Origin: Sphaerosporella brunnea
Taxonomy: Eukaryota > Ascomycota > Pezizomycetes > Pezizales > Pyronemataceae
NCBI GenBank assembly: GCA_008704415.1
Contig: VXIS01000189.1
Location: 27,763-91,762, forward strand
Direction: 5' to 3'
DNA: 64,000 nt
The notes beneath the pieces were generated by a model. It was not told the origin of the DNA, did not search any database, and saw only the letters and a program-made list of their open reading frames with translations. Shown one piece after another: positions 41,558-64,000 of this stretch. Position numbers and translations under genes: made by a program. The first letter of the stretch is position 1. Every line of letters begins with the position of its first letter.

Positions 41558-44500
41558 TTACAACGCAATTTTAGGCAAAGTACCGTAACGATCGAAAATC
41601 GACTCTTTCAATGTATCCTTGACGCCCTTGACAGTGCCCTGGATGCCCTATGCTGTTCAGCGTGTTTTTCGTCCCCTCGGACCGTCACCAGTATCGCTCA
41701 CCTTATCCAGTTTGTGGTCAAGAGTGGTGCACGCGCGGTTGAGACGCTGCACCTCGCGGTTCTTTTCATCGGCCGACAACTGAACAACAGCTCCGGATGA
41801 CCAGAGAGTCAGGGAGTTGCACAGTTGGCTAACACTCGTCAAGAATCGGCGTCCGTTGGCGAGGCGCCCTTTTTCGGTTACCTTGGTGCAGAACGAGATC
41901 AGGTCCGGCATTCCGGTCTGCTCGATGTTCTGGAACACGGGGGGATCTCCGTCCTTCTTGAGTCGACCTTGCAGCTTCTGGTAGCCGCGACTAGACACGC
42001 AGAACACCGGCAAGTTTTTCGCGATTTCATCGTAATCACGGATGTCGATGTTCGGGTCAAAGTTGTCGCCTTGTTGCTCCTCGGCGGCTTCCAAGTCGAG
42101 CTCTCGAAGACCGGCGACAAAGTCCTGCTGGATTGCGGCGGTCGAATAGGCGTTACGCTCTTTGATGCACCTGCAGGCAACCTCGTTTTCCAGTTTCCTG
42201 ATGGAATCGGAGAGTTCGGAGATGTCAGCCTTCAGCTTGGTGATAGAGTGTATTAACTCCGACTTCTGCTTTCGGGCAGCCTTTTTCGACTCCTTGAGTT
42301 CGTCGATTTTTGCTTCGATTTCTTCCAAGGAGACGGGCTCGCCCTCGTCTTCCTCTAGTTTGTCGGTCTCCTCTTCCTCTTTGTCGCTAGGTTGCTCCTC
42401 CTCATCATCATCATCATCATCATCGACAGCGAAAACGTCGGCATCGTCCTCCTCGCAACGACGTGTCTTTCTCTTCCCGATGCGAGCTGGGCTGGCACCG
42501 CGCTTCCGCTTCTTTCCTTTGTCTGCGTCCTTGTCGTCTGCGTCCTTGTCTGTCTTCGACAGCTTCGGTTCGTAAACCACTTCGCCCGCCTCGGCCTTGT
42601 CCTTGATGTCCTCCCAAGCACTGAGCCAGTCGTCGAGTTGATCAATGGCGTCCTGAATGTCGGACTTGGTGTCGGTGAGTTCCTTGAGGTCCGCTTTCTT
42701 GGCGTTCTTCTCGGCATCCAACTCCTCGATGCGCGCGTTCTGGGGTTCCAATTCTTCTTCGAGTTGCAAACTTAGGATCGCTTCCGAGACCGAGATATCG
42801 TCGGACTTGGAGCAGATGAAAGAAATGCTGGAGAATCCACCGTCCATCAGAAGTTGACGACGGAAGCCTTCTCCGAGCAGCTTGTGGGCGCTCTTGTCGT
42901 CCACGGCACGGGTGATGGGAGCCACGATCCAGAGACCGGTACACTTCTGCATGTAAGAGTCCGCGACGGCAGCTCGAGCCGCGTTCGCATCGTGAACACC
43001 GGGAAGATCAACCACGACGGCACCGGTCTTCAGGGGTTCGGATTTGACGAAGATTTTGACCACTTGGATAAGAGGCCAAAACTCCATACCCTTCGGCTTC
43101 TTGTCATCCTTGCTCTTTTCAGCGCTGTCCACGTAGCGCTGCAAATCCTTGTAGAACTTGAACGAGTCGGTGTTCTCGAGAACCCTGGTTTTTCCCAGCA
43201 CCATCTTGACCGAGGGTTCGCGGACCAGACTGTCGGGAGAAGTTTTGGTCAGTGTCTCTTTGGTCTTCCCAGGATAGACGGCTTTGATCTTCTCCCAGGC
43301 AACTTGGGCGTCGGCGTCTCGACTGACGTTCCTCATTTCGCCGTACTCGTCGAAGAGGTCTTGCCAGAGGGCCTTCAACTCTTTCAACCAATCCGCCTCG
43401 CTGATGAACTCTATCTTGGCGCGGTAAGGGTGGTCGGTCTCGGTGTTGTACGAGATTTCGGTGACGACGGCGGTGCAGGCACGCATGCAAGAAGTCGGAA
43501 CGAGGCGCTCCTCCTCGAGCAAGGCGTTGATCACGCTGCTTTTCCCGGCACCGGTGTTTCCGACCACACCGATCACGCACCTCTGGAACTCGGCTTGCTT
43601 CCGAATCTTGGCGATCTGCGCCAGCCACGCCTTGCCTTCTTCCGTCTGAGCACCTTCGAGGGCCCTGTCGAGCTTGTACAAGAGCTCCAGTCCCCTGTCG
43701 ACTCCCCGCTCCATCGTTTTGACGTCGACATCATGGAAGAGGGTCTGCAGCTGCACCGGAGAGGTCTCGGGCTCCTTTTGCTCATCCAGTTCCTCCTTCA
43801 CGATCGCGGCGACCTCAGATTTAACTGATGCCTCGCGTGAAGGTGCATGGATTGCTACTGGTGATGCAGTCGGGAAAGCCTGCGGCGATGGTCCCGGAAG
43901 GCGGGCGGCGGTGGCGGGAGTGGACGGGTGAACCGCCAGGCTGGCAAAACCAGCGACAGGAACCGGGTCGACGAACCCAGGAGGTCGGGTCGGGAAGACA
44001 CCGTAAGGCGGCAGAGGTTGTCCGAGCTGCGGCGACGCTCCGGGGGGTTGGTGGGGTCGCGTCGGGGTCGCGGACACGGGTGGAAACTGTGATGGTCGAA
44101 CCGGGGGGTCGGAGTAAGTGCGTACGGACGGAGAAGTGGGATATCGAGCGAAAGGATCTATGAAGGAAGTAGCCTGTAGCGGCGCGACCCCGTTCGTGCT
44201 CGTGGGGATAGCACCAAGCGAAGGTGTGCGGGATGATACTGGGGCAGGTGTGACGGCAACGGGGCGCAGGTTGTCAGTCACGGGCTGGAAAGGCCCCCGC
44301 GCAGGAAGTGTCTGGGGCGGGGTCAGAGGGGTGCTGCGGTCCACGGGAAGTCCGGAGCCAACCTTAGTGGCGATGAACACAACAAGTCCCTTCCCATCGT
44401 CGAAGTCGGCGAGAGACCCAGAGCTATCCCCAACATCGACACCGCGATACCTCAAGGACCAGTCGCCCTCGGGGATGTATCTCCTCACGATAGCCTGCTC

Positions 44501-44902
44501 GGCCTTGTTGCGCAGGGTTGACATTTTGGTCGTCTTGGGTGCGATAGGAGGGTCAGATTTGAGTTTGTTTTCATTTTTTTTGTTTGATCGGGGATGAAGA
44601 ACTTACTGCCACGCCGTTGAACCAGCCGAAATCTTCAGTTTCCAAGTCATGTAAGTTTGGAGGAAGGCCGACGTCGACGAAGACAGCAACCAAGATCCGG
44701 CTAGGTCCCCCATCTTGCATAGGCGGCCTCACCTCTTGCGCTTTGGCGTGGAGGTTACTGCGGGGATGGAAGTAAAGTCAGCAGCGTTCGGAATCGCGGG
44801 GGCGAAAGCGGTGGGATTTAGGCGAGAACAAGATTCACGTTCGCGCAGGGAAACGCGTAGCATATTGAGGGGCTTCACTCACGCGTAGAACTGGTTTGTC
44901 AT
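40175..44902 (-). CDS. SLIP-GC/NUGGC-like nuclear dynamin-family GTPase, 8 exons, 1397 aa
   Basis: Exons (minus) are 44902-44883, 44757-44607, 44533-41702, 41638-41584, 41473-41378, 41328-41293, 41240-41211 and 41148-40175; they sum to 4194 bases in frame. An internal Met at 44524 opens a large single frame, but two upstream exons add 60 residues starting MTNQFYA. Residues 60-290 are proline-rich and disordered. The G domain has GNTGAGKSS (about 382-390), TEISYN after an RACTA-type switch I, VVDLPGVHDA (G3), and ICSKSDDIS at the G4 position. An acidic D/E stretch, a basic KKRKR...GKRKTRR signal and a coiled coil (about 750-850) follow. The C-terminal half is helical (GLYWATYKAICRR, AYDWNAELTAPLIKLL). 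These proteins are nuclear GTPases. Intron 7 is GC-AG. The first 1.8 kb recurs, broken, in the right palindrome arm. Confidence 0.9.
41511..41553. repeat. poly(A) tract, 43 bases, inside GTPase intron 4
   Basis: On the coding strand it is T43, lying 35-40 bases upstream of the TTGTAG acceptor at 41474-41476, in the position of a polypyrimidine tract. It interrupts the C-terminal frame of the GTPase and explains why the gene looks like two separate frames. Confidence 0.85.
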
Positions 44903-47406
44903 GATGACGGGGGGGCGGCTAACGTAGCCGAGCGCGGAGGCGATGGGAGCACAGATACAGATGGAACGGCCGCAAATTATTCGCGAATGGTAGCGATGTC
45001 CAGCCGAGAGGCGGAGAGGCAGAGAGGAGAGGGTGGTGGTGGCAGTGATAGTGGCGATTAAAGAGGAGGCGGAGGAGGAGGAGGAGGGGAGAAGGAGAGT
45101 GACGCGATTGCGGGGGGGGGGGGGTGTGGGTCAACGTGTTGCAGTGGCAAGCCGCAACGACTGGTGTCATCGCGGACGTTTGAATTCCCGATGAAGACAT
45201 TCTATTTCCGTATTCGGACCAAGATGCCGGATGACTGATTGATCCATGACGGGTCACGTGGCAGATGCTGCGCCACGACTTCCCGTGGCTGTGGCTGTGG
45301 CTGCTGGTCTCCCGTGCCGTGATCGTCATGACGCATGCTTGACTGTCACACCACGTGAGACGGCATGCCTGCCAAGAACGCCCATTGCCGGCTTACGTAA
45401 TCAATCGCACCAGAAGCGAAGAGAAGCCGCGATCACTTAAATCACTCGCTTTTCACCACCTCAGCAAAAATCGCCATCTGGTCCAAAAAGTCGACCGCTG
45501 GCCGGGAAAGTAGAAAAACACATGCCATTCAATCCTGGAAAAAAAAAAAAAAAAAAAAAAAAGAGCAAAATTGGAGGTGCTATGAGCTGGGAGGCGCGGT
45601 GGCCCCATACAAAAAGCTACTTGCAAATTGCGTGGTGGTGGTGGAGAAGTAAGAGTATGAAATTCCCAGACGTTACCCGTAAGTGGCCGACACTCTAAGG
45701 ATTTTGGTGGGTCTCGCTCAATCACTCGCAGTTCGCACATCCATACCCTTAGTTCTCCACCTCCACAAGACCAAATTCAAATCGGAGATCGTAGACTTGC
45801 TCAGAACATCCTTCTCTTTAATCGTATGGTGCTTTTACAAACTATTTTTCTGGTTGTTCTGCTCTCTAAAGGTCGGCGCCCCTCTAGTTTCAACCGGGTA
45901 ACCCCAAACCAGTGAAGGTGTACGTTTAAAGCGCCTTGCACCATATAAACTACACCCCCATTTTTAGAATAGCGCCGTTTTCATCTGCGCGTAACCGTAA
46001 GCACGCCAGCGCGGCTTGGCGCTGCAACGTCACTCCGGCCAGCATGGGAGAATGGTTTTCATTCAGCACAGCAACAGACAACCTATTATTTCGAGCTACA
46101 CATATTTCCCAACAATGAGCTCGATCCCATCTATTAAGTCCGCGACTTGCTCACGGGCGACGATTCAACCGGCTCGGCAGTGAGGGATAATAGAAGAGTG
46201 CAGCCAAGAGGCCGAGCTGGCAAGCAAGCAAGCAAGCAATAATAAGGGTCCTCAAAGTTAGATTTCATTAAGAAATGCACTCGAATCTCAGGGGCAGCAT
46301 AAGGTTCTTCCATTGGGCGCTCCTGTTAGCGTCCAACTCGCGTTTTGCTTTCAACTCGATCATTAGCAAGATGGGCAATGATAAGGCGTAGTGTCGAGAG
46401 CGCGAACGTGCCAAAACACATCCGTCACTGGGTGGTACTACCATTCTACAAACTGCATCAACTGAGTCGCTCAAAGTTACAAAGCGGGTTAGCCTTTTTC
46501 ACGGACGTGTGCGACTTGTCTTTTCTGTTCCAATGCTAATAAAAAACAACCTTGAGGACGCTTAATCGGTAGCTCTTGATGCTCTTCCACTCCCAGGACC
46601 TAAACGCTTGAAGAAGCTACAGTCACGGATGACGACTCGACTTGGCTCAGCGCCAGCTGCGGAAGTCATCAGAGTCAAGCGAAATTACGTAGTTGCAGGA
46701 TCTCTTTTCCTGCATTGAGTGACACTGAGTGATGGATGGGGTTTTGGTTTTATTTCAGGGACGAAGATCTTGCTGGCACCCAAATCCGATATTGTACTAG
46801 TTCAAAAGTGGTTGGCGCTGTTCATGAAATAGCGCTAGTCCCAAAATGGGCCTATTTTCTCAACAACCAGGCAGAATTCATAAATTCTGAGTTAATTAGT
46901 CGATAGAGCGAGCGAAAACTACTTAGGCCCCTGACAGTGTTATTTTTTAAAATAACTTTTTTTTTTTTTGGTGGAGGATGCTCTGTCCAAAGTATCAATC
47001 AGTCCAACAAGAAGAGAACGCCCGCCTTCACAGCCTGATTGGCCACCGACCCCACCAACCACCAACCACCAACCACCAACCACCAAACCCCCAACCCAGC
47101 CAACAAGAACAACAACAACAACTCACGCCGCACACAGTTCATATACACAAACAACCATCGCGAGCTCTGGATAACCAACCGCAATGTGCCATGCCACCCT
47201 CCATCCATCCCACGATCCGCAAAGGTACGGTATCCCAAATTCCCCCCCCCCCCCCCCTCCCAAAAACAAAAAACAAAAAACAACACAAACAAAACAAACG
47301 ACAAATCGCCAGCAACAAACAAAGTGAAGTAATGCCTCCAAAAAAAAAAAAAAAAAAAAAAAAAACGCCCAACAAAAAATGCCCACCCGCACACACACAC
47401 GCCTGG
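44903..47406. other. intergenic region upstream of the GTPase gene
   Basis: No gene seen in 2.5 kb. Holds a G-run (about 45112-45124), GTCACGTG near 45251, A24 at 45539-45562, CACCAACCAC-type runs near 47050-47090, C14 near 47243 and A26 at 47340-47365. The side next to 44902 is presumably the GTPase promoter. Confidence 0.5.
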
Positions 47407-47841
47407 CTACCTCCTGATCCTGGCGCCAGTCAACAGCAGCCTGCCGGCGACTCTGGGCGCATTAGCAGCGACGAAGCCGGCCAGGCGCCACAGGGCCACG
47501 GAGACGGACGGGAAGCCAGCCTGCTGCAGTTTCGTGACCAGCAGGCCGCGCTGCAAGATCTCGACGGTGGACTGCAGCGACGACGCGGCGGGGCCTAGCG
47601 GCGCGACATCAGCTGGGGGCCGGGGGGAGGGGAGAGGGGTAGGGGGGAGGGGATTACCAGCTACGGGGACGAGCGGGCCGCAGCCTAGCAGCGCCATCGG
47701 GTTGAGACACAGGAAGACGCCGGCGGCGGTGAAGGCGGTGTCGTAGGGGTGGTTGAGGACGTATCTCCTGAGGGCGCCGAGGACGGAGGAGGGGGAGGAG
47801 GAGGGTGTGGATATGGATGTAGCGGTTGGTTTTGGGCCCAT
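47407..47841 (-). CDS. small membrane protein (129 aa), diverged relative of the IFI6-like neighbour
   Basis: Two exons, 47841-47658 and 47612-47407, with a 45-base GTAATC...CAG intron. The N-terminus is Ser/Thr-rich (MGPKPTATSIST). Next is a hydrophobic segment in the phrase NHPYDTAFTAAGVFLCLNPM, then ALLGCGPLV, which parallels QHPWQTAAILLGIVLILNPV, then ALAGFG, in the next gene. A second apolar stretch near the end (SVALWRLAGFVAANAPRVAG) is followed by a basic tail RIRR. The glycine-rich core of the IFI6 family is not retained, so membership is by synteny and the shared NP-x-AL-x-G motif. It has the same promoter layout as the neighbour. Confidence 0.75.
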   Translation of the reverse strand: MGPKPTATSISTPSSSPSSVLGALRRYVLNHPYDTAFTAAGVFLCLNPMALLGCGPLVPVAGNPLPPTPLPSPRPPADVAPLGPAASSLQSTVEILQRGLLVTKLQQAGFPSVSVALWRLAGFVAANAPRVAGRLLLTGARIRR

Positions 47842-47917
47842 GATGATGGTTGTTGTTACTGTTTGCCGTGTCTTTTCTCCCTTCGGTTGATGAAAAGCGA
47901 CGGCGAAGGCGGGCGGG

Positions 47918-47924
47918 TATATAT
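47918..47924 (-). promoter_or_regulatory. TATA box of the 129-aa membrane-protein gene
   Basis: TATATAT 77 bases before the ATG, followed on the minus strand by ACCCGCCCGCCTTC, nearly the same arrangement as upstream of the next gene. Confidence 0.55.
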
Positions 47925-48262
47925 CGCATCCCCCCGTGACACCCACCCACCACGGCATGCCTATCCCTCCCTCCGCCAGCGACACGTATCCACGCATCCG
48001 CGAGCGTGTGGTGAAGCAACACGTCTCTCGGCGCCCCGCTGCACGCGTCCCAAAGCGTGCAAGCGCGGTGCGAGCAGATCACTCACGCGGGGGGGGGGGG
48101 GCGGGCCGTGCAGATCCCACGATTGGCCGGGGCGGCGCGGGCACGGCACGACAACTCATTTGCGGCGGCGGCCGCGTCTACATGCCGGATGCGTCTACGT
48201 GGAGGTGGTATGTATTCTAGGTACAGTAGCTACACGGCCATCGGCAACTACATGTCCACCCG

Positions 48263-48980
48263 CTATCCCTTCTGGAACCACTCCTTGAGCCACTCGATGG
48301 CTTTCGGCACCACCACCGCCGCAGCCAGCACGCCAAGCCCCGTCATCGGAATGGCCACGGCGCCCAGGACGCCGACGCTCTGCAGGATGGCGAAGGCGCT
48401 TCCGGCGGCAATGTAGCCACCCATACCGGCCTGGATGCCCGCGGCAATCGAGCCTAGTCGATCAGTCAGTCAGTCGGCTCCCGAAACAAAAAAAAACAAA
48501 AAAAAAACAAAAAACAAGAAAACAAAAAAACTCACCACCCACGACGCCACCGGCGCCGAAGCCCGCGAGCGCAACCGGGTTGAGGATCAACACGATGCCG
48601 AGGAGGATGGCGGCGGTCTGCCACGGGTGCTGCTTGATGTACTCGGTGATGGTGTGGTACAGAGCACGCCAGAACGCCGGGTCCTTGAGTGTATCGACGG
48701 CCCTGGTGAAGTTGGCCAGAAGCGCCGTGACGAAGGGGCTGTCGCGCAGCGCGGGGATGTGGGCGAAGGCGTCGATGCTGAGGCCTTTGATGCGGCAGCA
48801 GAGCTCGTGCGGATCGGCTTCATCAGAGGAGGTGTCGCCGCCGCCAGGACCGGCTTCATCAGAGGAGGTGTCGCCGTCGCGGGGACCGGCTTCATCAGAG
48901 GAGGTGTCGCCGCCGCTAGGACCGGCTTCATCCGAGGAGGTGTCGTTGTCGTCGTCGCGGGGGCGCCTGGGAGGAGCCAT
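48263..48980 (-). CDS. IFI6/ISG12-family (Ifi-6-16) membrane protein, 211 aa
   Basis: Exons 48980-48536 and 48453-48263 (intron 82 bases, GTGAGT...CTAG). The N-terminus has four tandem repeats of a 12-residue unit containing DTSSDEAGP, acidic with SxxE/SSDE sites suited to casein kinase 2. A helical middle (IPALRDSPFVTALLANFTRA) precedes the membrane part: QHPWQTAAILLGIVLILNPV, ALAGFGAGGVVGGSIAAGIQ, AGMGGYIAAGSAFAILQSVG, then AIPMTGLGVLAAAV, ending EWFQKG. The GAGG..GSIAAGIQ..IAAGS.FA.LQS pattern is diagnostic of the Ifi-6-16 family. Animal members act in mitochondrial and ER membranes and modulate apoptosis; the fungal role is unknown. It lies divergent from the coiled-coil gene at 49466. 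Confidence 0.87.
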
Positions 48981-49055
48981 GTTTCTTTTCTCTGTCGATG
49001 ATGACGGCGTCGGAGGAAGAAGAAGAAGAAGATGCGTCGGAGGAGAAGCGGGCGG

Positions 49056-49062
49056 TAATATA
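49056..49062 (-). promoter_or_regulatory. TATA box of the IFI6-like gene
   Basis: TATATTA 76 bases before the ATG, followed by ACCGCCCGCTTCTCC on the minus strand; matches the spacing and downstream words of the 129-aa gene's promoter. Confidence 0.55.
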
Positions 49063-49465
49063 CCCTTCCTCCTCCTCCTCCTCCTCCTCCTCCGCAAACC
49101 GCTTCCATTAACCAACCCGCAATCCACACGTTTCCATTCACCGTGTTTGCATCACAAACCCTGACTCGCCCGCCGCTTTCACTCACTCACTCACTGACTG
49201 ACTCACTGACTCACGGCACTCACTCACAAAGAAGAGCAAAGAAAACAAAACAAAAAAACAAACAAGGAGAAAACTGGCGGGGCCCAAACTTGCCCACCGA
49301 GTTTCATCCCATGATGATGATGATCAAGAGTCCATTCAATTCCCCGTCTCGCCGTCCCTCCCTCCCGGTCCCTTCCTTTCTCTCCCCTCCCTCCCTCCCG
49401 GCACTCCCATCCCCCAAAAGCAAAAAAAACTTACAAATCCCACAATCCCCCCCACGATAACAACG

Positions 49466-49810
49466 ATGTCGGACACAGAGCAGCAAGCCGCCGCGCACGC
49501 CACGCTCGTCAGCACGCTGCGCAGCTCGAGCGCCTCGCTGCGCAACGCGAACACGCAGCTGCGCCAGCTGCAGGCGTCGCTGCTCGCGGCGCCCGCCGAG
49601 CAGCGCGACGACGGCCAGATCGCCTACGTCAAGAACTGCCTTCGGCGCATCGAAACCGTCTACGACCTGATCGACAGCATCCGCGACGACAACCTGCTGC
49701 CGCACGTCGACAAGCGGCGCCTGGAGATGCTGAACCGGATGGTGAGCGGCGAGGTAAGTGTGCGGCGCGGGGAGCTGGTGGCTTTGCTGCGGATGGTGGA
49801 AGAGGAGTGA
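49466..49810 (+). CDS. small coiled-coil protein (up to 114 aa), unrecognised
   Basis: ATG at 49466. The frame is almost wholly helical: heptads in LVSTLRSSSASLRNANTQL, then RQLQASLLAAP, then CLRRIETVYDLIDSIRDDNL and DKRRLEMLNRM. A GTAAGT at 49753 (after SGE) is a good donor, so the last 19 codons may be intron and the true end different. Size and composition fit small subunits of multi-protein complexes (kinetochore or tethering types), but I cannot name one. Its partner in the right arm (57289-57633) has the same frame and length. Confidence 0.65.
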   Translation: MSDTEQQAAAHATLVSTLRSSSASLRNANTQLRQLQASLLAAPAEQRDDGQIAYVKNCLRRIETVYDLIDSIRDDNLLPHVDKRRLEMLNRMVSGEVSVRRGELVALLRMVEEE

Positions 49811-49940
49811 GTCGGAAGGATTGTCGGTTTCTAGCTGGGTGATGGGGTGTGTGTGGTGGTTCGCTGCTGCTGCAATCAATATCTAGAAGCTGCTTTTGCG
49901 AAGGGGAAGAAATTGAATACCGATGTTGGCCGGATACCGG

Positions 49941-49974
<34 letters not shown>

Positions 49975-50234
49975 GCAGCCTTTCCACGCGGTTCTCGTCT
50001 ATCTTAGCTTGCTTGCTTGACGTGATGCAGCCATCGGCTCTTCCCTCCCTCCCTCCCGAGGGAATACGAAACCCAATGACGTCCACTGCTCGCTCGCAGA
50101 ACCAAAACCAAAGAAAAAAACAAAAAACAAAGACTCCCCCCCCAGTCCTCACCAACTCCACCTTCCTCACTCCAATCCCACCAGCAAAAACACCAAAAAC
50201 ATCCAGCCAAACCTCAACCCACCAACCAGAAAAG

Positions 50235-50735
50235 ATGTCCGCAGTCGGAGCCGCCACCGCCGACGTCGGCGTGCGCACCTGGCGCGAAGCCTTCCGCCGA
50301 GACCCCGAGCTCTACGTAGGCCCCTCGTCCCCTCTCTGCGCCCTCACTGACCCCCCCGCCACAGGGCATGGCGATCCTCGTCACCGGCGTCCTCGGCACC
50401 TTCGGCTACTACTTCGGCCGCAACAGCACCGCGGTGACGGCGCGGGGCGCAGGCCAACGCATCAACGTGGCGCGCAGGGGGGAGCCGTGGGCCGCCAAGG
50501 GCGTCGAAAACACCGACAAGAACAGCTACAAGTACATGTACCACCCCAGGGGCGACTTTCGGAACGCGCCCAAGCGTGCGCCGGGGGCGTTGAATTCGGT
50601 CATTGTGCCAGGGGTTACACTGCCGAAGGTGAGTTCGGTGAAGTGTGTTTTTTTGAGGAGGGAGGGAAAGGATGGTGCTGATTGGCGCAGGAAGTGCACG
50701 AGAAGTTGAATAAGTATGGGAAGGATAATTACTAG
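50235..50735 (+). CDS. single-pass membrane protein, 129 aa, three exons
   Basis: Exons 50235-50315, 50365-50628 and 50691-50735; both introns keep phase 0, with CAG acceptors and a GCTGATT branch-like site in the second. The short N-terminus TWREAFRRDPELY leads into a transmembrane helix (GMAILVTGVLGTFGYYFGR), then a soluble tail with RGEPWAAKGV, YKYMYHPRGDFRNAP and a compact C-terminus EVHEKLNKYGKDNY. Layout resembles small mitochondrial inner-membrane accessory subunits, but the family is not identified. The gene is duplicated with identical frames at 56364-56864. Confidence 0.75.
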
Positions 50736-51528
50736 TCTGTGAGCCGAGGAAGTAATGCTGCGGCGGAAGAATTGCGAATATAGCTTGTTTTCCAGATCTG
50801 ACTTCATCTGTGGCCGTCCGGCCCCGAAATCTGTGGCGTCTGAATGATCGAATGTAATGTTTGGCACCAGGAAACCAGCTCTCAACTGCTGCATTCTGTT
50901 CAATTCGACCAACGGCTTTGACCTATCCATCGAAACCAATTGTAACCCCGATGCAAAAAAATATCTCGAAGAAAAGAACAAAGTAGTCAGTCCATCGTTC
51001 ATTTAAAAAAGAAAAAAACCTCGCAACTCAGCGAGCAGAGAGAGAAAGATAAAGAAGGAAAGAAAAAGCAAATCAGAACGCCGTGGAAAAGATGATAGTG
51101 AGCAAAGGCGCATGCAAGTAAATCGGTAAGTAGCGGAGAAAAAAAGGCCGGCTCCATCCCAGGCCGAACGAAAGAGAAAGAGAAAAAGAAGCCGCAAATC
51201 TATCCTCCCCCCATTCGTATCGTAACAGCAAGAAAAAAAGCACCGTATTACATTTTCCATCTCCCGCATATAAGGAAAAAGGATCGCCCTTCCATCATCA
51301 AATGAGAACAGCACATGCATTGCATCGCAGAAAGCAGAAGAAAGTGAAGCAAACGAAAGACAAAGCCACAGATCACAGCCCAATCCACCGTATCATGCAA
51401 AGAATCAGCAATAAAAAAAAAATAAAAAAAAGGAAAACCACAGCATGTCCCCCTTTGCTTCAATGTGCCCGCAAAGGGTATCCCAATACACCCACCTCTA
51501 TGCCAATTAACGCCAGATCCACTCCCGC
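50736..51528. other. intergenic between convergent genes
   Basis: Non-coding. The stretch 51005-51450 is very purine-rich on the plus strand (A/G runs) and probably holds the 3' UTR of the proline-rich gene. Confidence 0.5.
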
Positions 51529-53262
51529 TTAAACGCTGACCTCATCCTCCTCGTCGTCGTCATCCGTGCTCTCGCAATAGTTGACTCTACCAGCTGTCGC
51601 GGTGCTGCGCGTGCTCTTGCGTCGGTTCGGATCCTCCTCCCTCTGCGGCTGCCGAGTAGCCTCTCTGCCACGCAAACTGCGCTTGACGTCGCGATCCGCG
51701 GAGGCGAAGGTAATGACTGGGTTCGAGGTCGCGCTCGCGCCAATCGGGGTGCTGATCGCAGTGGTGGTGACAGTCGCGATGGGCGACTCGCTTCCACTGC
51801 TAGGCTGGCTGGTCGGCCGGAAGAAGCTGAACAGCGTGCCCTGCTTCTTGGCCTGTTGAGCCGCAGTCGCACCCGCAGGCTTGTCCGGCACCGCCGCCTT
51901 GTGGGATGCCGGAGCAGTCGTGTGCACGAACCGGAGCTGCTGCGGGGCAGCAGGTGCGGGCGTGACCGTGGCCACGGTGCTCAATTGCCGAGGCTTGGAC
52001 TTGATCTGCTTGGAGGGGCCCTTGGGCTTCCCCGGCGAGGTGGGGGGCTTCGCGGAACCCGTGGAAGAGACCGAGCGACGAGACGTGGCTGGGGCAGGTG
52101 GTGACTGCAAACGGATCGAGTCGAGCGCATCATCGGCGGGCCGAGCCGGAAGTGCCTGGGAAGGCGCCGGCGGAGGGACGGCGATGGAGGAGGTGCGCGA
52201 ACGCGAGCGGAGGCGCTTGGTGGAAGAAGCGGCGTCGGTCGGCTTAGGGCGCGATTCACCAGGCGCCCGTGCAGTTGGCTGTGGGGCATAAAATCCGGCC
52301 GGCTGGACCGCAGAAGTGTGCTCGGCGACGAACGTGAAGACCTTGGGCTTCGGGATGGGCGCCGGGGGCGGCGGCTGGACCTTCTCCTCATCACGTTGGG
52401 GAACAGATTCGTTTGCAGGGGGCATGACCGGCTTCTGGGTGATTTGCCGTTCCGGCGGTGCGATGGTGGTGGTGGTGGTGGTGGTGAATTCCGGCATCGG
52501 GCGGCTACTGCGTGGCTTTTCCTCGGCAACTGCTGCCTGGAACTTCTCCGGAGGGACGAAAGAGAAGTCAAAGGGCGTTTCCTCCAGCTTGATCGGGGGG
52601 TCGCGGGCCTGCGAGAACGAATCCCGCATGCGCATGTCCGCCGCCGAAGCGTCCGACATTGCGGGGGTGAATGACTGAGTAAACGAAGGTGTCATGGATG
52701 GGGTCCTGGACTCCACCGAGCTGCTCTTGAGGAACTTGCCATCGTCACCTCTCCTCTTGCCTGGGGTGCCCGTCCTGCCCGGGGACGTAGCTGTAGCAGG
52801 AGTGGCGGCGGTGGTGGCGGCGACCGGCGGAGCAGCAGCAGCAGCAGCATCGGTCGCCTTCGGCTTCTTCTCAAACTTCCCACCCTTTCCCCGCCTCGCC
52901 TCTTGCATCGCCCTCATCCGCTCCCGCTTCCTCTTGCTCTCCTCCTCCTTTTTCCTCCGCTCGTCCTCCCGCTTCTCCTTGACCTTGCGTTCCTCTTCCT
53001 CCTTGCGCTCCCGCTCGGCCTGTTCCTCGCGCAGTATCCGCTGCAGATCCTCCGGTTCGACCCTCAACGCGCGTTCGAACGGAGCGAGCAGCAGCGCGAT
53101 CAGGGTCTCCCTGTTGCGCCAGCAGATGTCGCACTTCAAGTCGCGGTCCGAGGACGGGTCGATGTACATCATGTCGTGGCCGCACTCGGCGAGACGCTCC
53201 GGGTTGGTGCGCAGCGTGCGAAGTGACCGCCGCCGGTTCCCGAGGCTCGGCGAGGGATCCAT
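51529..53262 (-). CDS. proline- and charge-rich protein with Cys/His motif (577 aa)
   Basis: Start placed at Met 53262 (MDPSPSLGNRRRSLRTLRTN); the frame stays open to an upstream Met at 53343, but that extension spans a G-run and is low complexity. Residues about 25-45 hold ECGHDM and KCDICWRNRE, a possible C-x2-H/C-x2-C metal site. A long Glu/Arg/Lys helix follows (EEQAERERKEEEERKVKEKR), then about 400 residues of Pro/Ser/Thr-rich disordered sequence and an acidic end (STDDDDEEDEVSV). No family recognised; composition suggests a nuclear or scaffold protein. The right-arm copy is broken. Confidence 0.7.
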   Translation of the reverse strand: MDPSPSLGNRRRSLRTLRTNPERLAECGHDMMYIDPSSDRDLKCDICWRNRETLIALLLAPFERALRVEPEDLQRILREEQAERERKEEEERKVKEKREDERRKKEEESKRKRERMRAMQEARRGKGGKFEKKPKATDAAAAAAPPVAATTAATPATATSPGRTGTPGKRRGDDGKFLKSSSVESRTPSMTPSFTQSFTPAMSDASAADMRMRDSFSQARDPPIKLEETPFDFSFVPPEKFQAAVAEEKPRSSRPMPEFTTTTTTTIAPPERQITQKPVMPPANESVPQRDEEKVQPPPPAPIPKPKVFTFVAEHTSAVQPAGFYAPQPTARAPGESRPKPTDAASSTKRLRSRSRTSSIAVPPPAPSQALPARPADDALDSIRLQSPPAPATSRRSVSSTGSAKPPTSPGKPKGPSKQIKSKPRQLSTVATVTPAPAAPQQLRFVHTTAPASHKAAVPDKPAGATAAQQAKKQGTLFSFFRPTSQPSSGSESPIATVTTTAISTPIGASATSNPVITFASADRDVKRSLRGREATRQPQREEDPNRRKSTRSTATAGRVNYCESTDDDDEEDEVSV

Positions 53263-53504
53263 CGCAGCGGGCGGGGCTCCTTCGGGGTGGGTTGAGGGTG
53301 AGGGGGGGGGGGACGTTAGTTGTCGGCGAGGACGATCATGCAACGGCGGGAGAGCAGGCTTGAATTGAGGATCGCAGGTGAGTCAGGCGCCAAGGGATGG
53401 GGGGGGGGGGGGTGTAGCGGGCGGAGTAGCGGGCGGAGTAGCGGACGACGAGCGGATTGTCGGCGGGTGGTGGTGGTGGTGGTGGTGGTGGCGGTGGTGG
53501 TCGT

Positions 53505-53565
53505 GGTGGTGGTGGCTTGTCGGTGTTGGGTGGACCAAACACCGACAAGCCACCACCACCACGAC
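53505..53565. repeat. palindrome centre (hairpin, 10-base loop) in a GGT/CCA tract
   Basis: GGCTTGTCGGTGTT (ending 53527), loop GGGTGGACCA (53528-53537), then AACACCGACAAGCC. The stem extends outward through CCACCACC/GGTGGTGG repeats. Frames read across here are poly-Gly or poly-His repeat translations. Confidence 0.9.
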
Positions 53566-53823
53566 CCCCACCCCACACAACCACCACACCCACCAACCGC
53601 GACAAGTCCGCTCGTCGTTCCGCTACTCCGCCGCTATCTCCGCCGCTACTACCCCCCCTGTGTCCCCATCCCTACGCCTGAGAGCTCACACCTGCGACCT
53701 CAAGTCACAAAGACCTAGCTCTCCCGCAGTTGCATGAATGTCCTGCGCCGATCATAACTAAACGTCCTCACGATCCCCCTCACCACTAACCCACCCGAGG
53801 GAGCCCCCTGCCTCCAGCTGCAC

Positions 53824-55571
53824 GATGGATCGCCGCGACCGGAACTCGGGAAGCCGGACGGCGGTTCACTACTCGCACGGCTGCGCAACCAAACCCGGAG
53901 CCGTCTCACCGAGTGCGGCCACGACATGATGTACATCGACCCGTCCTCGGACCGCGACTTGAAGTGCGACATCTGCTGGCGCAACAGGGAGACCCTGATC
54001 GCGCTGCTGCTCGCTCCGTTCGAACGCGCGTTGAGGGTCGAACCGGAGGATCTGCAGCGGATACTGCGCGAGGAACAGGCCCGAGCGGGAGCGCAAGGAG
54101 GAAGAGGAACAGCAGGTCAAGGAGAAGCGGGGGAGAGACGAGCGGAGGAAAAAGGAGGAGGAGAGCAAGAGGGAAGCGGGAGCGGAGAGGGCGATGCAAG
54201 AGGCGAGGCGGGGAGAAAGGGTGGGAAGTTTGAGAAGAAGCCGAAGGCGACCGATGCTGCTGCTGCTGCTGCTCCGCGGTCGCCGCCACCACCGCCGCCA
54301 CTCCTGCTACAGCTACGTCCCCGGCAGGACGGGCACACCAGGCAAGAGGAGAGGTGACGATGCAAGTTCCTCAAGAGCAGCTCGGTGGAGTCCAGGGACC
54401 CCATCCATGACACCTTCGTTTACTCAGTCATTCACCCCCGCATGTCGGACGCTTCGGCGGCGGACATGCGCATGCGGGATTCGTTCTCGCAGGCCCGCGA
54501 CCCCCCGATCAAGCTGGAGGAAACGCCCTTTGACTTCTCTTTCGTCCCTCCGGAGAAGTTCCAGGCAGCAGTTGCCGAGGAAAAGCCACGCAGTAGCCGC
54601 CCGATGCGGAATTCACCACCACCACCACCACCACCATCGCACCGCCGGAACGGCAAATCACCCAGAAGCCGGTCATGCCCCCTGCAAACGAATCTGTTTC
54701 CCCAACGTGATGAGGAGAAGGTCCAGCCGCCGCCCCCGGCGCCCATCCCGAAGCCCAAGGTCTTCACGTTCGTCGCCGAGCACACTTCTGCGGTCCAGCC
54801 GGCCGGATTTTATGCCCCACAGCCAACTGCACGGGCGCCTGGTGAATCGCGCCCTAGCCGACCGACGCCGCTTCTTCCACCAAGCGCCTCCGCTCGCGTT
54901 CGCGCACCTCCTCCATCGCCGTCCCTCCGCCGGCGCCTTCCCAGGCACTTCCGGCTCGGCCCGCCGATGATGCGCTCGACTCGATCCGTTTGCAGTCACC
55001 ACCTGCCCCAGCCACGTCTCGTCGCTCGGTCTCTTCCACGGGTTCCGCGAAGCCCCCCACCTCGCCGGGGAAGCCCAAGGGCCCCTCCAAGCAGATCAAG
55101 TCCAAGCCTCGGCAATTGAGCACCGTGGCCACGGTCACGCCCGCACCTGCTGCCCCGCAGCAGCTCCGGTTCGTGCACACGACTGCTCCGGCATCCCACA
55201 AGGCGGCGGTGCCGGACAAGCCTGCGGGTGCGACTGCGGCTCAACAGGCCAAGAAGCAGGGCACGCTGTTCAGCTTCTTCCGGCCGACCAGCCAGCCTAG
55301 CAGTGGAAGCGAGTCGCCCATCGCGACTGTCACCACCACTGCGATCAGCACCCCGATTGGCGCGAGCGCGACCTCGAACCCAGTCATTACCTTCGCCTCC
55401 GCGGATCGCGACGTCAAGCGCAGTTTGCGTGGCAGAGAGGCTACTCGGCAGCCGCAGAGGGAGGAGGATCCGAACCGACGCAAGAGCACGCGCAGCACCG
55501 CGACAGCTGGTAGAGTCAACTATTGCGAGAGCACGGATGACGACGACGAGGAGGATGAGGTCAGCGTTTAA
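53824..55571 (+). pseudogene. right-arm copy of the proline-rich gene, frameshifted
   Basis: Reverse-complement partner of 51529-53262. Frame is lost at once after the start and at several later points through single-base insertions and deletions. From about 54990 to the stop at 55571 it matches the left copy perfectly in frame (STDDDDEEDEVSV end). The pattern suggests sequence error rather than decay. Confidence 0.85.
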
Positions 55572-56363
55572 GCGGGAGTGGATCTGGCGTTAATTGGCAT
55601 AGAGGTGGGTGTATTGGGATACCCTTTGCGGGCACATTGAAGCAAAGGGGGACATGCTGTGGTTTTCCTTTTTTTTATTTTTTTTTATTGCTGATTCTTT
55701 GCATGATACGGTGGATTGGGCTGTGATCTGTGGCTTTGTCTTTCGTTTGCTTCACTTTCTTCTGCTTTCTGCGATGCAATGCATGTGCTGTTCTCATTTG
55801 ATGATGGAAGGGCGATCCTTTTTCCTTATATGCGGGAGATGGAAAATGTAATACGGTGCTTTTTTTCTTGCTGTTACGATACGAATGGGGGGAGGATAGA
55901 TTTGCGGCTTCTTTTTCTCTTTCTCTTTCGTTCGGCCTGGGATGGAGCCGGCCTTTTTTTCTCCGCTACTTACCGATTTACTTGCATGCGCCTTTGCTCA
56001 CTATCATCTTTTCCACGGCGTTCTGATTTGCTTTTTCTTTCCTTCTTTATCTTTCTCTCTCTGCTCGCTGAGTTGCGAGGTTTTTTTCTTTTTTAAATGA
56101 ACGATGGACTGACTACTTTGTTCTTTTCTTCGAGATATTTTTTTGCATCGGGGTTACAATTGGTTTCGATGGATAGGTCAAAGCCGTTGGTCGAATTGAA
56201 CAGAATGCAGCAGTTGAGAGCTGGTTTCCTGGTGCCAAACATTACATTCGATCATTCAGACGCCACAGATTTCGGGGCCGGACGGCCACAGATGAAGTCA
56301 GATCTGGAAAACAAGCTATATTCGCAATTCTTCCGCCGCAGCATTACTTCCTCGGCTCACAGA

Positions 56364-56864
56364 CTAGTAATTATCCTTCCCATACTTATTCAACTTCTCG
56401 TGCACTTCCTGCGCCAATCAGCACCATCCTTTCCCTCCCTCCTCAAAAAAACACACTTCACCGAACTCACCTTCGGCAGTGTAACCCCTGGCACAATGAC
56501 CGAATTCAACGCCCCCGGCGCACGCTTGGGCGCGTTCCGAAAGTCGCCCCTGGGGTGGTACATGTACTTGTAGCTGTTCTTGTCGGTGTTTTCGACGCCC
56601 TTGGCGGCCCACGGCTCCCCCCTGCGCGCCACGTTGATGCGTTGGCCTGCGCCCCGCGCCGTCACCGCGGTGCTGTTGCGGCCGAAGTAGTAGCCGAAGG
56701 TGCCGAGGACGCCGGTGACGAGGATCGCCATGCCCTGTGGCGGGGGGGTCAGTGAGGGCGCAGAGAGGGGACGAGGGGCCTACGTAGAGCTCGGGGTCTC
56801 GGCGGAAGGCTTCGCGCCAGGTGCGCACGCCGACGTCGGCGGTGGCGGCTCCGACTGCGGACAT
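56364..56864 (-). CDS. right-arm copy of the single-pass membrane protein
   Basis: Reverse-complement partner of 50235-50735 with all three exons intact and the same predicted 129-aa product. Probably the same locus represented twice rather than a second gene. Confidence 0.6.
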
Positions 56865-57124
56865 CTTTTCTGGTTGGTGGGTTGAGGTTTGGCTGGATGT
56901 TTTTGGTGTTTTTGCTGGTGGGATTGGAGTGAGGAAGGTGGAGTTGGTGAGGACTGGGGGGGGAGTCTTTGTTTTTTGTTTTTTTCTTTGGTTTTGGTTC
57001 TGCGAGCGAGCAGTGGACGTCATTGGGTTTCGTATTCCCTCGGGAGGGAGGGAGGGAAGAGCCGATGGCTGCATCACGTCAAGCAAGCAAGCTAAGATAG
57101 ACGAGAACCGCGTGGAAAGGCTGC

Positions 57125-57158
<34 letters not shown>

Positions 57159-57288
57159 CCGGTATCCGGCCAACATCGGTATTCAATTTCTTCCCCTTCG
57201 CAAAAGCAGCTTCTAGATATTGATTGCAGCAGCAGCGAACCACCACACACACCCCATCACCCAGCTAGAAACCGACAATCCTTCCGAC

Positions 57289-57633
57289 TCACTCCTCTTC
57301 CACCATCCGCAGCAAAGCCACCAGCTCCCCGCGCCGCACACTTACCTCGCCGCTCACCATCCGGTTCAGCATCTCCAGGCGCCGCTTGTCGACGTGCGGC
57401 AGCAGGTTGTCGTCGCGGATGCTGTCGATCAGGTCGTAGACGGTTTCGATGCGCCGAAGGCAGTTCTTGACGTAGGCGATCTGGCCGTCGTCGCGCTGCT
57501 CGGCGGGCGCCGCGAGCAGCGACGCCTGCAGCTGGCGCAGCTGCGTGTTCGCGTTGCGCAGCGAGGCGCTCGAGCTGCGCAGCGTGCTGACGAGCGTGGC
57601 GTGCGCGGCGGCTTGCTGCTCTGTGTCCGACAT
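57289..57633 (-). CDS. right-arm copy of the small coiled-coil protein
   Basis: Identical frame and length to 49466-49810, in inverted orientation. Same caution about being an assembly duplicate. Confidence 0.6.
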   Translation of the reverse strand: MSDTEQQAAAHATLVSTLRSSSASLRNANTQLRQLQASLLAAPAEQRDDGQIAYVKNCLRRIETVYDLIDSIRDDNLLPHVDKRRLEMLNRMVSGEVSVRRGELVALLRMVEEE

Positions 57634-58118
57634 CGTTGTTATCGTGGGGGGGATTGTGGGATTTGTAAGTTTTTTTTGCTTTTGGGGGATGGGAGTGCCG
57701 GGAGGGAGGGAGGGGAGAGAAAGGAAGGGACCGGGAGGGAGGGACGGCGAGACGGGGAATTGAATGGACTCTTGATCATCATCATCATGGGATGAAACTC
57801 GGTGGGCAAGTTTGGGCCCCGCCAGTTTTCTCCTTGTTTGTTTTTTTGTTTTGTTTTCTTTGCTCTTCTTTGTGAGTGAGTGCCGTGAGTCAGTGAGTCA
57901 GTCAGTGAGTGAGTGAGTGAAAGCGGCGGGCGAGTCAGGGTTTGTGATGCAAACACGGTGAATGGAAACGTGTGGATTGCGGGTTGGTTAATGGAAGCGG
58001 TTTGCGGAGGAGGAGGAGGAGGAGGAGGAGGAAGGGTATATTACCGCCCGCTTCTCCTCCGACGCATCTTCTTCTTCTTCTTCCTCCGACGCCGTCATCA
58101 TCGACAGAGAAAAGAAAC

Positions 58119-58835
58119 ATGGCTCCTCCCAGGCGCCCCCGCGACGACGACAACGACACCTCCTCGGATGAAGCCGGTCCTAGCGGCGGCGACACCTCCT
58201 CTGATGAAGCCGGTCCCCGCGACGGCGACACCTCCTCTGATGAAGCCGGTCCTGGCGGCGGCGACACCTCCTCTGATGAAGCCGATCCGCACGAGCTCTG
58301 CTGCCGCATCAAAGGCCTCAGCATCGACGCCTTCGCCCACATCCCCGCGCTGCGCGACAGCCCCTTCGTCACGGCGCTTCTGGCCAACTTCACCAGGGCC
58401 GTCGATACACTCAAGGACCCGGCGTTCTGGCGTGCTCTGTACCACACCATCACCGAGTACATCAAGCAGCACCCGTGGCAGACCGCCGCCATCCTCCTCG
58501 GCATCGTGTTGATCCTCAACCCGGTTGCGCTCGCGGGCTTCGGCGCCGGTGGCGTCGTGGGTGGTGAGTTTTTTTGTTTTCTTGTTTTTTGTTTTTTTTT
58601 GTTTTTTTTTGTTTCGGGAGCCGACTGACTGACTGATCGACTAGGCTCGATTGCCGCGGGCATCCAGGCCGGTATGGGTGGCTACATTGCCGCCGGAAGC
58701 GCCTTCGCCATCCTGCAGAGCGTCGGCGTCCTGGGCGCCGTGGCCATTCCGATGACGGGGCTTGGCGTGCTGGGCTGCGGCGGTGGTGGTGCCGAAAGCC
58801 ATCGAGTGGCTCAGGAGTGGTTCCAGAAGGGATAG
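58119..58835 (+). pseudogene. right-arm copy of the IFI6-like gene, exon 2 altered
   Basis: Exon 1 (58119-58563) is identical in translation to the left copy. In exon 2 (58645-58835) one G is gained in the GTGCTGGGCTGC stretch and one A lost in GGCTCAGGAGTGG. About 20 codons between them are read in the wrong frame before the frame is restored at the C-terminus. Two compensating one-base errors so close together are typical of raw long-read sequence. Confidence 0.8.
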
Positions 58836-59237
58836 CGGGTGGCATGTAGTTGCCGATGGCCGTGTAGCTACTGTACCTAGAATACATACCACTCACGTAG
58901 ACGCATCCGGCATGTAGACGCGGGCCGCCGCCGCAAATGAGTTGTCGTGCCGTGCCCGCGCCGCCCGGCCAATCGTGGGATCTGCACGGCCCGCGCGCGT
59001 GATGTCTGCTCGCCCGCGCTTGCACGCTTTGGGACGCGTGCAGCGTGGCCCGAGAGACGTGTTGCTTCACCACACGCTCGCGGATGCGTGGATACGTGTC
59101 GCTGGCGAGGGAGGGATAGGCATGCGTGGTGGGTGGTGTTCACGGGGGGATGCGATATATAACCGCCCGCCTTCGCCGTCGCTTTTCATCAACCGAAGGG
59201 AGAAAAGACACGGCAAACAGTAACAACAACCATCATC

Positions 59238-59664
59238 ATGGGCCCAAAACCACCGCTACATCCATATCCACACCCTCCTCCTCCCCTCCTCCGTCCTCGC
59301 GCCTCAGGAGATACGTCCTCAACCACCCCTACGACACCGCTTCACCGCCGCCGGCGTCTTCCTGTGTCTCAACCCGATGGCGCTGCTAGGCTGCGGCCCG
59401 CTCGTCCCCGTAGCTGGTAATCCCCCTCCCCCCTACCCCTCTCCCCTCCCCCGGCCCCAGCTGTATGTCGCGCCGCTAGGCCCCGCCGCGTCGTCGCTGC
59501 AGTCCACCGTCGAGATCTTGCAGCGCGGCCTGCTGGTCACGAAACGCAGCAGGCTGGCTTCCCGTCCGTCTCCGTGCCCTGTGGCGCCTGGCCGGCTCGT
59601 CGCTGCTAATGCGCCCAGAGTCGCCGGCAGGCTGCTGTTGACTGGCGCCAGGATAAGGAGGTAG
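59238..59664 (+). pseudogene. right-arm copy of the 129-aa membrane-protein gene, frameshifted
   Basis: ATG at 59238 corresponds to 47841. A base is missing within the first ten codons (AAAACCACCGC against AAAACCAACCGC) and others further on, so no continuous product is encoded. The end (TGARIRR) is intact. Confidence 0.8.
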
Positions 59665-62173
59665 CCAGGCGTGTGTGTGTGCGGGTGGGCATTTTTTGTT
59701 GGGCGTTTTGGAGGCATTACTTCACTTTGTTTGTTGCTGTGCGATTTGTCGTTTTGTTTTGTTTGTGTTGTTTTGTTTTTTGTTTTTGGGAGAATTTGGG
59801 ATACCGTACCTTTGCGGATCGTGGGATGGATGGAGGGTGGCATGGCACATTGCGGTTGGTTATCCAGAGCTCGCGATGGTTGTTTGTGTATATGAACTGT
59901 GTGCGGCGTGAGTTGTTTGTTGTTTGTTCTTGTTGGCTGGGTTGGGGGTTTGGTGGTTGGTGGTTGGTGGTGGTGGTTGGTGGGGTCGTGGCCAATCAGG
60001 CTGTGAAGGCGGGCGTTCTCTTCTTGTTGGACTGATTGATACTTTGGACAGAGCATCCTCCACCAAAAAAAAAGTTATTTTAAAAAATAACACTGTCAGG
60101 GGCCTAAGTAGTTTTCGCTCGCTCTATCGACTAATTAACTCAGAATTTATGAATTCTGCCTGGTTGTTGAGAAAATAGGCCCATTTTGGGACTAGCGCTA
60201 TTTCATGAACAGCGCCAACCACTTTTGAACTAGTACAATATCGGATTTGGGTGCCAGCAAGATCTTCGTCCCTGAAATAAAACCAAAACCCCATCCATCA
60301 CTCAGTGTCACTCAATGCAGGAAAAGAGATCCTGCAACTACGTAATTTCGCTTGACTCTGATGACTTCCGCAGCTGGCGCTGAGCCAAGTCGAGTCGTCA
60401 TCCGTGACTGTAGCTTCTTCAAGCGTTTAGGTCCTGGGAGTGGAAGAGCATCAAGAGCTACCGATTAAGCGTCCTCAAGGTTGTTTTTTATTAGCATTGG
60501 AACAGAAAAGACAAGTCGCACACGTCCGTGAAAAAGGCTAACCCGCTTTGTAACTTTGAGCGACTCAGTTGATGCAGTTTGTAGAATGGTAGTACCACCC
60601 AGTGACGGATGTGTTTTTGGCACGTTCGCGCTCTCGGACACTACGCCTTATCATTGCCCATCTTGCTAATGATCGAGTTGAAAGCAAAACGCGGTTGGAC
60701 GCTAACAGGAGCGCCCAATGGAAGAACCTTATGCTGCCCTGAGATTCGAGTGCATTTCTTAATGAAATCTAACTTTGAGGACCCTTATTATTGCTTGCTG
60801 CTTGCTTGCCAGCTCGGCATTCTTGGCCTGCACTCTCTTCTATTATCCCGTCACTGCCGAGCCTGGTTGAATCGTCGCCCGTGAGCAAGTCGCGGACTTA
60901 ATAGATGGGATCGAGCTCATTGATTGGGAAATATGTGTAGCTCGAAATAATAGGTTGTTCTGTTTGCTGTGCCTGAATGAAAACCATTCTCCCATGCTGG
61001 CCGGAGTGACGTTGCCAGCGCACAAGCCCGCGCTGGCGTGCTTACGGTTACGCGCAGATGGAAAACGGCGCTATTCTAAGAAATGGGGTGGTGTAGTTTA
61101 TATGGTGCAAGGCGCTTTAAACGTACACCTTCACTGGTTTTGGGGTTACCCGGTTGAAAACTAGAGCGGGCCGCCGACCTTTAGAGAGCAGAACAACCAG
61201 AAAAATAGTTTGTAAAAGCACCATACGAATTAAAGAGAAGGATGTTCTGAGGCAAGTCTACGATCTCCGATTTGTAATTTGGTCTTGTGGAGGTGGAGAA
61301 CTAAGGTATCGGATGTGCGAACTGCGAGTGATTGAGCGAGACCCACCAAAATCCTTAGAGTGTCGGCCACTTACGGGTAACGTCTGGGAATTTCATACTC
61401 TTACTTCTCCACCACCACCACGCAATTTGCAAGTAGCTTTTTGTATGGGGCCACCGCGCCTCCCAGCTCATAGCACCCTCCAATTTTGCTCTTTTTTTTT
61501 TTTTTTTTTTTTTTTCCAGGATTGAATGGCATGTGTTTTTCTACTTTCCCGGCACAGCGGTCGACTCTTTTGGGACCAGATGGCGATTTTTGCTGAGGTG
61601 GTGAAAAGCGAGTGATTTAAGTGATCGCGGCTTCTCTTCGCTTCTGGTGCGATTGATTACGTAAGCCGGCAATGGGCGTTCTGGCAGGCATGCCGCTCTC
61701 ACGTGGTGTGACAGTCAGAGCATGCGTCATGACGATCACGGCACTGGAGAGACCAGCAGCCACAGCCACAGCCACGGGAAGTCGTGGCTGCAGCATCTGC
61801 CACGTGTGACCGTCATGGATCAATCAGTCATCCGGTCATCTTGGTCCGAATACGGAAATAGAATGTCTTCATCGGGAATTCAAACGTCCGCGATGACACC
61901 AGTCGTTGCACGGCTTAGCCACTTGCAACACGTTGACCCACACCCCCCCCCCCCCCGCAATCGCGTCACTCCTCCTTCTCCCCTCCTCCTCCTCCTCCGC
62001 CTACCTCTTGTAATCGCCACTATCACTGCCACCACCACCCTCTCCTCTCTGCCTCTCCGCCTCTCGGCTGGACATCGCTACCATTCGCGAATAATTTGCG
62101 GCCGTTCCTATCTGTATGCTGTGCTCCCATCGTCCTCCGCGCTGCGGCTACGTTAGCCGCCCCCCCCGTCATC
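59665..62173. other. right-arm copy of the intergenic region
   Basis: Partner of 44903-47406. The 26-A run at 47340 is reduced to four T here, and the 14-C run near 47243 is missing, while the 24-A run at 45539 is retained at similar length. No gene. Confidence 0.75.
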
Positions 62174-64000
62174 ATGACAAACCAGTTCTACGCGTGAGTG
62201 AAGCCCCTCAATATGCTACGCGTTTCCTCTGCGCGAACGTGAATCTTGTTCTCGCCTAAATCCCACCGCTTTCGCCCCCGCGATTCCGAACGCTGCTGAC
62301 TTTACTTCCATCCCCGCAGTAACCTCCACGCCAATAGCGCAAGAGGTTGAGGCCGCCTATGCAAGATGGGGGACCTAGCCGGATCTTGGTTGCTGTCTTC
62401 GTCGACGTCGGCCTTCCTCTCAAACTTACATGACTTGGAAACTGAAGATTTCGGCTGGTTCAACGGCGTGCAGTAAGTTCTTCATCCCCGATCAAACAAA
62501 AAAAATGAAAACAAACTCAAATCGACCCTCCTATCGCACCCATAGACGACCAAAATGTCAACCCTTGCGCAACAAGGCCGAGCATGCTATCGTGAGGAGA
62601 TACATCCCCGAGGGCGAACTGGTCCTTGAGGTATCGCGTTGGATCGATGTTGGGGATAGCTCTGGGTCTCTCGCCGATCTTCGACGATGGGAAGGGACTT
62701 GTTGTGTTCAATCGCCACTAGAGTTGGCTCCGGACTTCCCGTGGACCGCAGCACCCCTCTGACCCCGCCCCAGACACTTCCTGCGCGGGGGCCTTTCCAG
62801 CCCGTGACTGACAACCTGCGCCCCGTTGCCGTCACACCCTGCCCCAGTATCCATCCGCACACCTTCGCTTGGTGCTATCCCCACGAGCACGAACGGGGTC
62901 GCGCCGCTACAGGGCTACTTCCTTCATAGATCCTTTCGCTCGATATCCCACTTCTCCGTCCGTACGCACTTACTCCGACCCCCCCGGTTTCGACCATCCA
63001 CAGTTTCCACCCGTGTGCCGCGACACCCCGACGCGACCCCACCAACCCCCCGGAGGCGTCGCCGCAGCTCGGACAACCTCTGGCCGCCTTAACGGTGTTC
63101 TTCCCGACCCGACCTCCTGGTTCGTCGACCCGGATTCCTGTCGCTGGCTTTTGCCAGCCTGGCGGTTCACCCGTCCACTCCCGCCACCGCCGCCCGCCTT
63201 CCGGGACCATCGCCGCAGGCTTTCCCGACATGCATCACCAGTAGCAATCCATGCACCTTCACGCGAGGCATCAGTTAAATCTGAGGTCGCCGCGATCGTG
63301 AAGGAGGAACTGGATGAGCAAAAGGAGCCCGAGACCTCTCCGGTGCAGCTGCAGACCCTCTTCCATGATGTCGACGTCAAAACGATGGAGCGGGGAGTCG
63401 ACAGGGGACTGGAGCTCTTGTACAAGCTCGACAGGGCCCTCGAAGGTGCTCAGACGGAAGAAGGCAAGGCGTGGCTGGCGCAGATCGCCAAGATTCGGAA
63501 GCAAGCCGAGTTCCAGAGGTGCGTGATCGGTGTGGTCGGAAACACCGGTGCCGGAAAGCAGCGTGATCAACGCCTTGCTCGAGGAGGAGCGCCTCGTTCC
63601 GACTTCTTGCATGCGTGCCTGCACCGCCGTCGTCACGAAATCTCGTACAACACCGAGACCGACCACCCTTACCGCGCCAAGATAGAGTTCATCAGCGAGG
63701 CGGATTGGTTGAAAGAGTTGAAGCCCTCTGGCAAGACCTCTCGACGAGTACGGCGAATGAGGAACGTCAGTCGAGACGCCGACGCCCAAGTTGCCTGGGA
63801 GAAGATCAAAGCCGTCTATCCTGGGAAGACCAAAGAGACACTGACCAAACTTCTCCCGACAGTCTGGTCCGCGAACCCTCGGTCAAGATGGTGCTGGGAA
63901 AAACCAGGTTCTCGAGAACACCGACTCGTTCAAGTCTTCTACAAGGATTTGCAGCGCTACGTGAGCACAGCGCTGAAAAGAGCAAGGATGACAAGAAGCC
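62174..64000 (+). pseudogene. right-arm partial copy of the SLIP-GC-like GTPase, many frameshifts, cut by window end
   Basis: Exon 1 and its donor (62174 onward) match 44902. Later exons carry one-base insertions and deletions every few tens to hundreds of bases. The P-loop coding stretch loses two bases in its G and A runs (GCCGGAAAGC against GCCGGGAAAAGC). The only long uninterrupted piece is about 63290-63560. The copy ends at the window edge opposite 43099. Confidence 0.85.

Follow-up and report, generated by a model that had tools for sequence, protein, structure and literature searches.

A near-spacerless palindrome at the end of a Sphaerosporella brunnea contig, very probably a fold-back long-read artefact

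Fold-back reads have been documented by Heinz, Meyerson and Li (PMC12870357); in the available text of that paper they are reported mainly for Nanopore data, with hardly any in three PacBio samples. Artificial palindromes in PacBio reads obtained after whole-genome amplification, which are harmful to assembly, are described in the accessible part of the Pacasus paper (PMC6218980). Long reads with an undetected hairpin adapter, in which both strands of the insert are present in one read, are handled in Canu according to the accessible part of PMC5411767. Another report, PMC7229812, in its accessible part concerns Nanopore and is not directly applicable. As for the organism studied here, the available text of the S. 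brunnea genome paper gives a PacBio low-input “10-kb library” and a Falcon/finisherSC/Arrow draft at 908x; the raw PacBio reads are found under SRP214822 and SRP215074 (PMC6908789, accessible part). None of the titles or abstract openings among the literature matches listed names the S. brunnea palindrome described below.

The window analyzed, i.e., the whole stretch of 64,000 nucleotides, corresponds to positions 27763-91762 of contig C100 (91,762 bases) of the 50.6-Mb, 640-contig S. brunnea assembly, and window position 64000 (C100:91762) is the last base of the contig. The right part of the window is a large palindrome that is present in the assembly but is, in our view with high probability, a fold-back long-read artefact kept as contig sequence.

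Extent of the palindrome and its position at the contig end

Comparison of the window with itself retrieved an inverted match of region 43095-64000 to itself that extends over 21,156 columns at 97.1% identity. A repeat search revealed 16 inverted pairs across this region that are 92-100% complementary, the longest being 2,948 nt at 100%. Since none of 10 first-order Markov simulations, each of this 21-kb stretch, produced an inverted match at E<=0.01, a palindrome arising by chance is excluded. The arms, of ca. 10.4 kb each, face each other across an exact 29-bp stem (53499-53527 with 53538-53566) that surrounds the loop (Table 1). The original prediction, made from the sequence, described arms of this length folding at this same 10-base loop and pairing to the window end, and both self-comparison and the exact stem bear this out; the arm start that it gave, 43099, should read 43095. 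This left limit follows from the place where the contig stops and is not a biological boundary.

Table 1. Coordinates of the palindrome and of the genes it affects (window positions)
Feature	Position	Strand	Remarks
Inner arm (A)	43095..53527	+	continuous with the contig to its left; two conserved genes intact
Terminal arm (B)	53538..64000	-	inverted copy of arm A, up to the exact contig end, with indels relative to A
Near-identical core of arm A	48489..52244	.	99.9% identity to arm B 54856-58610
Turn, 10-base loop	53528..53537	.	adjoins GGT/CCA tract
Dynamin/DUF7605 GTPase gene, P0001 (FN846DRAFT_910178), 1401 aa	40178..44759	-	extends over the arm boundary and can be read through arm A
Arm B copy of the 5′ part of the P0001 gene	62341..64000	+	frame-broken; cut by the contig end
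Conserved Pezizales gene P0121, 577 aa	51529..53262	-	intact in arm A
Arm B copy of the P0121 gene	53833..55568	+	split over two frames
GenBank model P0133 (FN846DRAFT_213302), 287 aa	54194..55116	+	fits arm B

Because the contig stops inside arm B, it contains no unique flank for this arm. Four probes of 0.5-1.6 kb, three of them internal to the arms and one spanning the boundary, matched C100 only among the best-scored candidates; a second flank located on another contig, which these probes sought, could be hidden by a contig gap. Two copies of the telomere motif TTAGGG were found nowhere in the whole contig, and two exact copies of TTTAGGG nowhere in the window, and a telomere-linked hairpin was therefore rejected. 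Likewise, an extrachromosomal rDNA palindrome was rejected since the arms contain no rRNA genes: no rRNA was detected in the window at the gathering score, and the two tRNAs found are both located outside the arms.

In the remainder of the window, an ORF at 18831-22730 (1299 aa) resembles a non-LTR retrotransposon and encodes endonuclease, reverse transcriptase and RNase H domains. A Copia-type gag ORF is located at 36914-37990, and the ORF at 7077-8006 encodes a phospholipase domain of the Tle1-like type (PF09994). A stretch of 119 bases at 26562-26680, separate from the large palindrome, matches its reverse complement at 74% identity.

Differences between the arms and their effect on genes

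Pairwise alignment of the arms revealed 139 indel events (a 94-base unaligned lead-in is omitted from this count), 102 of which involve a single base; in arm B, 89 are insertions and 50 are deletions. There are 130 mismatched columns, 67 of them between position 53001 and the turn, and just four substitutions are isolated in the sense that no other difference is found within 10 columns of them. Outside the core (Table 1, 99.9%), identity is 93.8-99.3%, and it drops to 80% in the last ca. 530 bases before the turn. When the whole palindrome was aligned by blastn, 121 mismatches were counted versus 331 gaps, each difference being counted on both arms. The contig contains eight further repeat pairs with a length of 150 bases or more, and in all eight mismatches exceeded gaps, with ratios from 15:5 to 124:3, though five of these pairs come from one tandem array, so the pairs are not independent. 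The differences between the arms are of the sequencing-error type and not of the type produced by evolutionary divergence. An old segmental duplication was rejected by the balance of indels and substitutions.

The gene coding for P0001 lies partly in unique sequence and partly in arm A. When its protein was searched as exact 12-mers, the frames of 40.0-53.5 kb accounted for 1383 of the 1401 residues; arm B, which extends no further than approximately residue 536, accounted for 364. All 28 indels that distinguish B from A in the coding stretch 43095-44533 have lengths that are not multiples of 3. Five related proteins from other sources were compared with both arms, and each fits arm A better, in alignments that span 790-1,011 columns of a single frame at 46-53% identity; with arm B, the same five proteins produced one stretch each, of 218-279 columns at 35-46%.

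The P0121 gene, whose relatives are present in Wilcoxina and Trichophaea, behaves similarly. Four of four related proteins fit arm A better, and in arm B every one of them is split over two frames; in the stop-to-stop ORF of this gene, 22 of the 26 indels are not multiples of 3. Arm B contains 286 of the 287 residues of model P0133, divided into two pieces; arm A contains 275, divided into seven. Given the better fit to arm B, it is evidently from this arm that the model was made.

Gap biases of the two arms are opposite at 44.0-46.5 and 46.5-48.5 kb, as might be expected if raw errors switched between the arms; this idea was dropped for both gene stretches because arm A is intact there. The judgment as to which arm is correct covers these two stretches, with ca. 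44.8-51.5 kb lying between them. With both conserved genes intact in it, arm A is taken as the genuine copy, and arm B is presumably the artefact.

The turn and the ends of other contigs

A GGT run (53466-53515) is located next to the loop, and the GGT/CCA tract noted at the turn in the original prediction is thus present. With a shift of one base, the turn can also fold into a 4-bp stem (53526-53529 with 53535-53538) that leaves five bases in the loop. A missed SMRTbell adapter would leave ca. 45 bases between the arms. We searched the turn for a trace of the 45-base adapter sequence; the best local score was 8.5, and 242 of 300 random windows scored as high or higher. Since no adapter trace is present at the turn, a simple missed adapter is unlikely, and this explanation was rejected, there being no adapter-like sequence between the arms. 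G runs of 11 and 14 at 53301-53420 are present in arm A and absent from arm B; base calls near the turn may be poor in both arms.

Of 40 contig ends retrieved (250 bases each), eight, each from a different contig, were searched singly for terminal palindrome partners, and one was found, for C102. The right end of this contig (91,747 bases) matches C102:66534-66784 in inverted orientation. At the center predicted from this match, there is a palindrome with 99.3% identity over 995 columns, and the turn consists of an exact 33-bp stem around three loop bases (79144-79146); at the outer end, 1,750 bases match at 99.9%. Judging from the center and outer-end stretches only, the arms of C102 would be ca. 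12.6 kb long. The compared stretches of C102 (ca. 1 kb at the center and 1.75 kb at the end) do not carry the indel load of arm B. No inverted partner was found for the right ends of C80, C98, C99, C130, C200 and C500 and the left end of C160, with the best 40 candidates scored for each of C80 and C130, whose ends are high-copy repeats. Fold-backs were found in none of the first 10 kb of eight contigs, six of which are shorter than 20 kb, so that their middles were covered, and two longer than 170 kb; two of these eight starts hold short, diverged inverted pairs of no more than 280 columns.

Of the best 40 scored places for the high-copy repeat at the right end of C130, seven are no more than 320 bases away from the start of a contig. 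On C122, C142, C172 and C183, its copies occur ca. 7.8 kb apart, which suggests a long tandem repeat. The 250 bases of this end produced no match in Rfam.

Origin of the palindrome

Four observations favor a fold-back artefact: the contig ends in arm B, the differences between the arms are of the error type and break genes, the library was a PacBio 10-kb library, and C102 also has a terminal palindrome. The original prediction had left an artefact and a real duplication both open; our evidence favors the artefact, even though a real fold-back would be nearly identical in sequence. One can envisage that one end of a ca. 10.4-kb library molecule was close to the GGT tract at 53.5 kb, and that one strand of this molecule folded back at a short inverted repeat (ca. 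4 bp, with a 5-base loop) and was extended or sealed, forming a closed hairpin end. PacBio sequencing would then proceed along one strand and return on its complement, with no normal adapter between the two, and generate a read of ca. 21 kb. Such a double-length read would be an attractive Falcon seed or finisherSC extension and would be placed on the contig end, in which case the true contig sequence stops near 53.5 kb and the terminal arm ends where the read ended. The read itself, the snap-back step and the choice of seed are what we infer here. Falcon takes the longest reads as seeds, a preference by which a double-length fold-back read would be favored, and loops of 3 to 10 bases at both turns fit the snap-back of a single strand on a few complementary bases. 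The arm length of ca. 10.4 kb is close to the 10-kb insert size, a match of two numbers and not a proof. Counting against the artefact are the missing adapter trace, the absence of an error load in the compared stretches of C102, and the seven of eight contig ends and eight of eight contig starts that have no fold-back.

The same structure could be produced in the cell, by snap-back repair or breakage-fusion at a chromosome break or end. In such a real inverted duplication, each arm would measure at least 10.4 kb, and the likeness of the arms would be due to a recent origin or to gene conversion; the assembler would have stopped unresolved in the second arm, as assemblers do in long inverted repeats. 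The small loop and the near-zero number of true substitutions (the four isolated ones) are expected of a very young real fold-back, and small-loop fold-backs arise in cells too. However, with 908x coverage, correction of the second arm of a real palindrome should be about as good as that of the first, and arm B has frame-breaking indels in two conserved genes. Ambiguous mapping weakens this argument, since a real palindrome, too, may be left unpolished where reads map equally to both arms. The lack of the doubled TTAGGG motif in the contig and the failure of the probed arm pieces to match any other contig among the best-scored candidates also speak against a real duplication, and, with C102 being alike, any real cause would need to have operated more than once. 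In view of the badly corrected terminal arm, the absence of a second flank and telomere motif, and the C102 sibling, we regard a real fold-back as very unlikely. Fractionally less probable still is that C100 and C102 represent several true, recent, near-spacerless palindromes with more than 10 kb per arm, created by in vivo snap-back repair on micro-inverted repeats at breaks.

An error in graph building or scaffolding would require no chimeric molecule at all: Falcon or finisherSC, both of which were used for this draft, would have joined the contig to a poorly corrected reverse-complement leftover of its own end, which would explain why one arm is poorly corrected. But an assembly join needs overlap, and the exact stems with tiny loops, 29 bp and 10 bases here and 33 bp and 3 bases in C102, look as if they came from a continuous fold-back molecule. 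We consider such an error just as improbable as a real fold-back in C100.

If the palindrome is indeed a fold-back artefact, the last 10.4 kb of C100 and probably ca. 12.6 kb of C102 are duplicates in a public genome, and broken or phantom gene models (P0133 being one), false inverted duplications and an inflated assembly result. The biological interest is low, and the value lies in the correction; screening contig ends for terminal self-palindromes could reveal such cases in other draft genomes.

Of the systems described previously, the Pacasus case (PMC6218980) differs in that, for S. brunnea, the available text of the genome paper describes a low-input protocol with no mention of amplification. 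Unlike reads with an undetected adapter, as treated in the accessible part of PMC5411767, the C100 turn contains no adapter-like sequence. The fold-backs described in the available text of PMC12870357 were seen in reads, whereas the C100 palindrome is seen in a finished contig, and their near-absence from the PacBio samples of that study counts against an easy analogy. Yet, as in those fold-backs, a single locus is read forward and then as its reverse complement, with the turn near the middle and little or no spacer.
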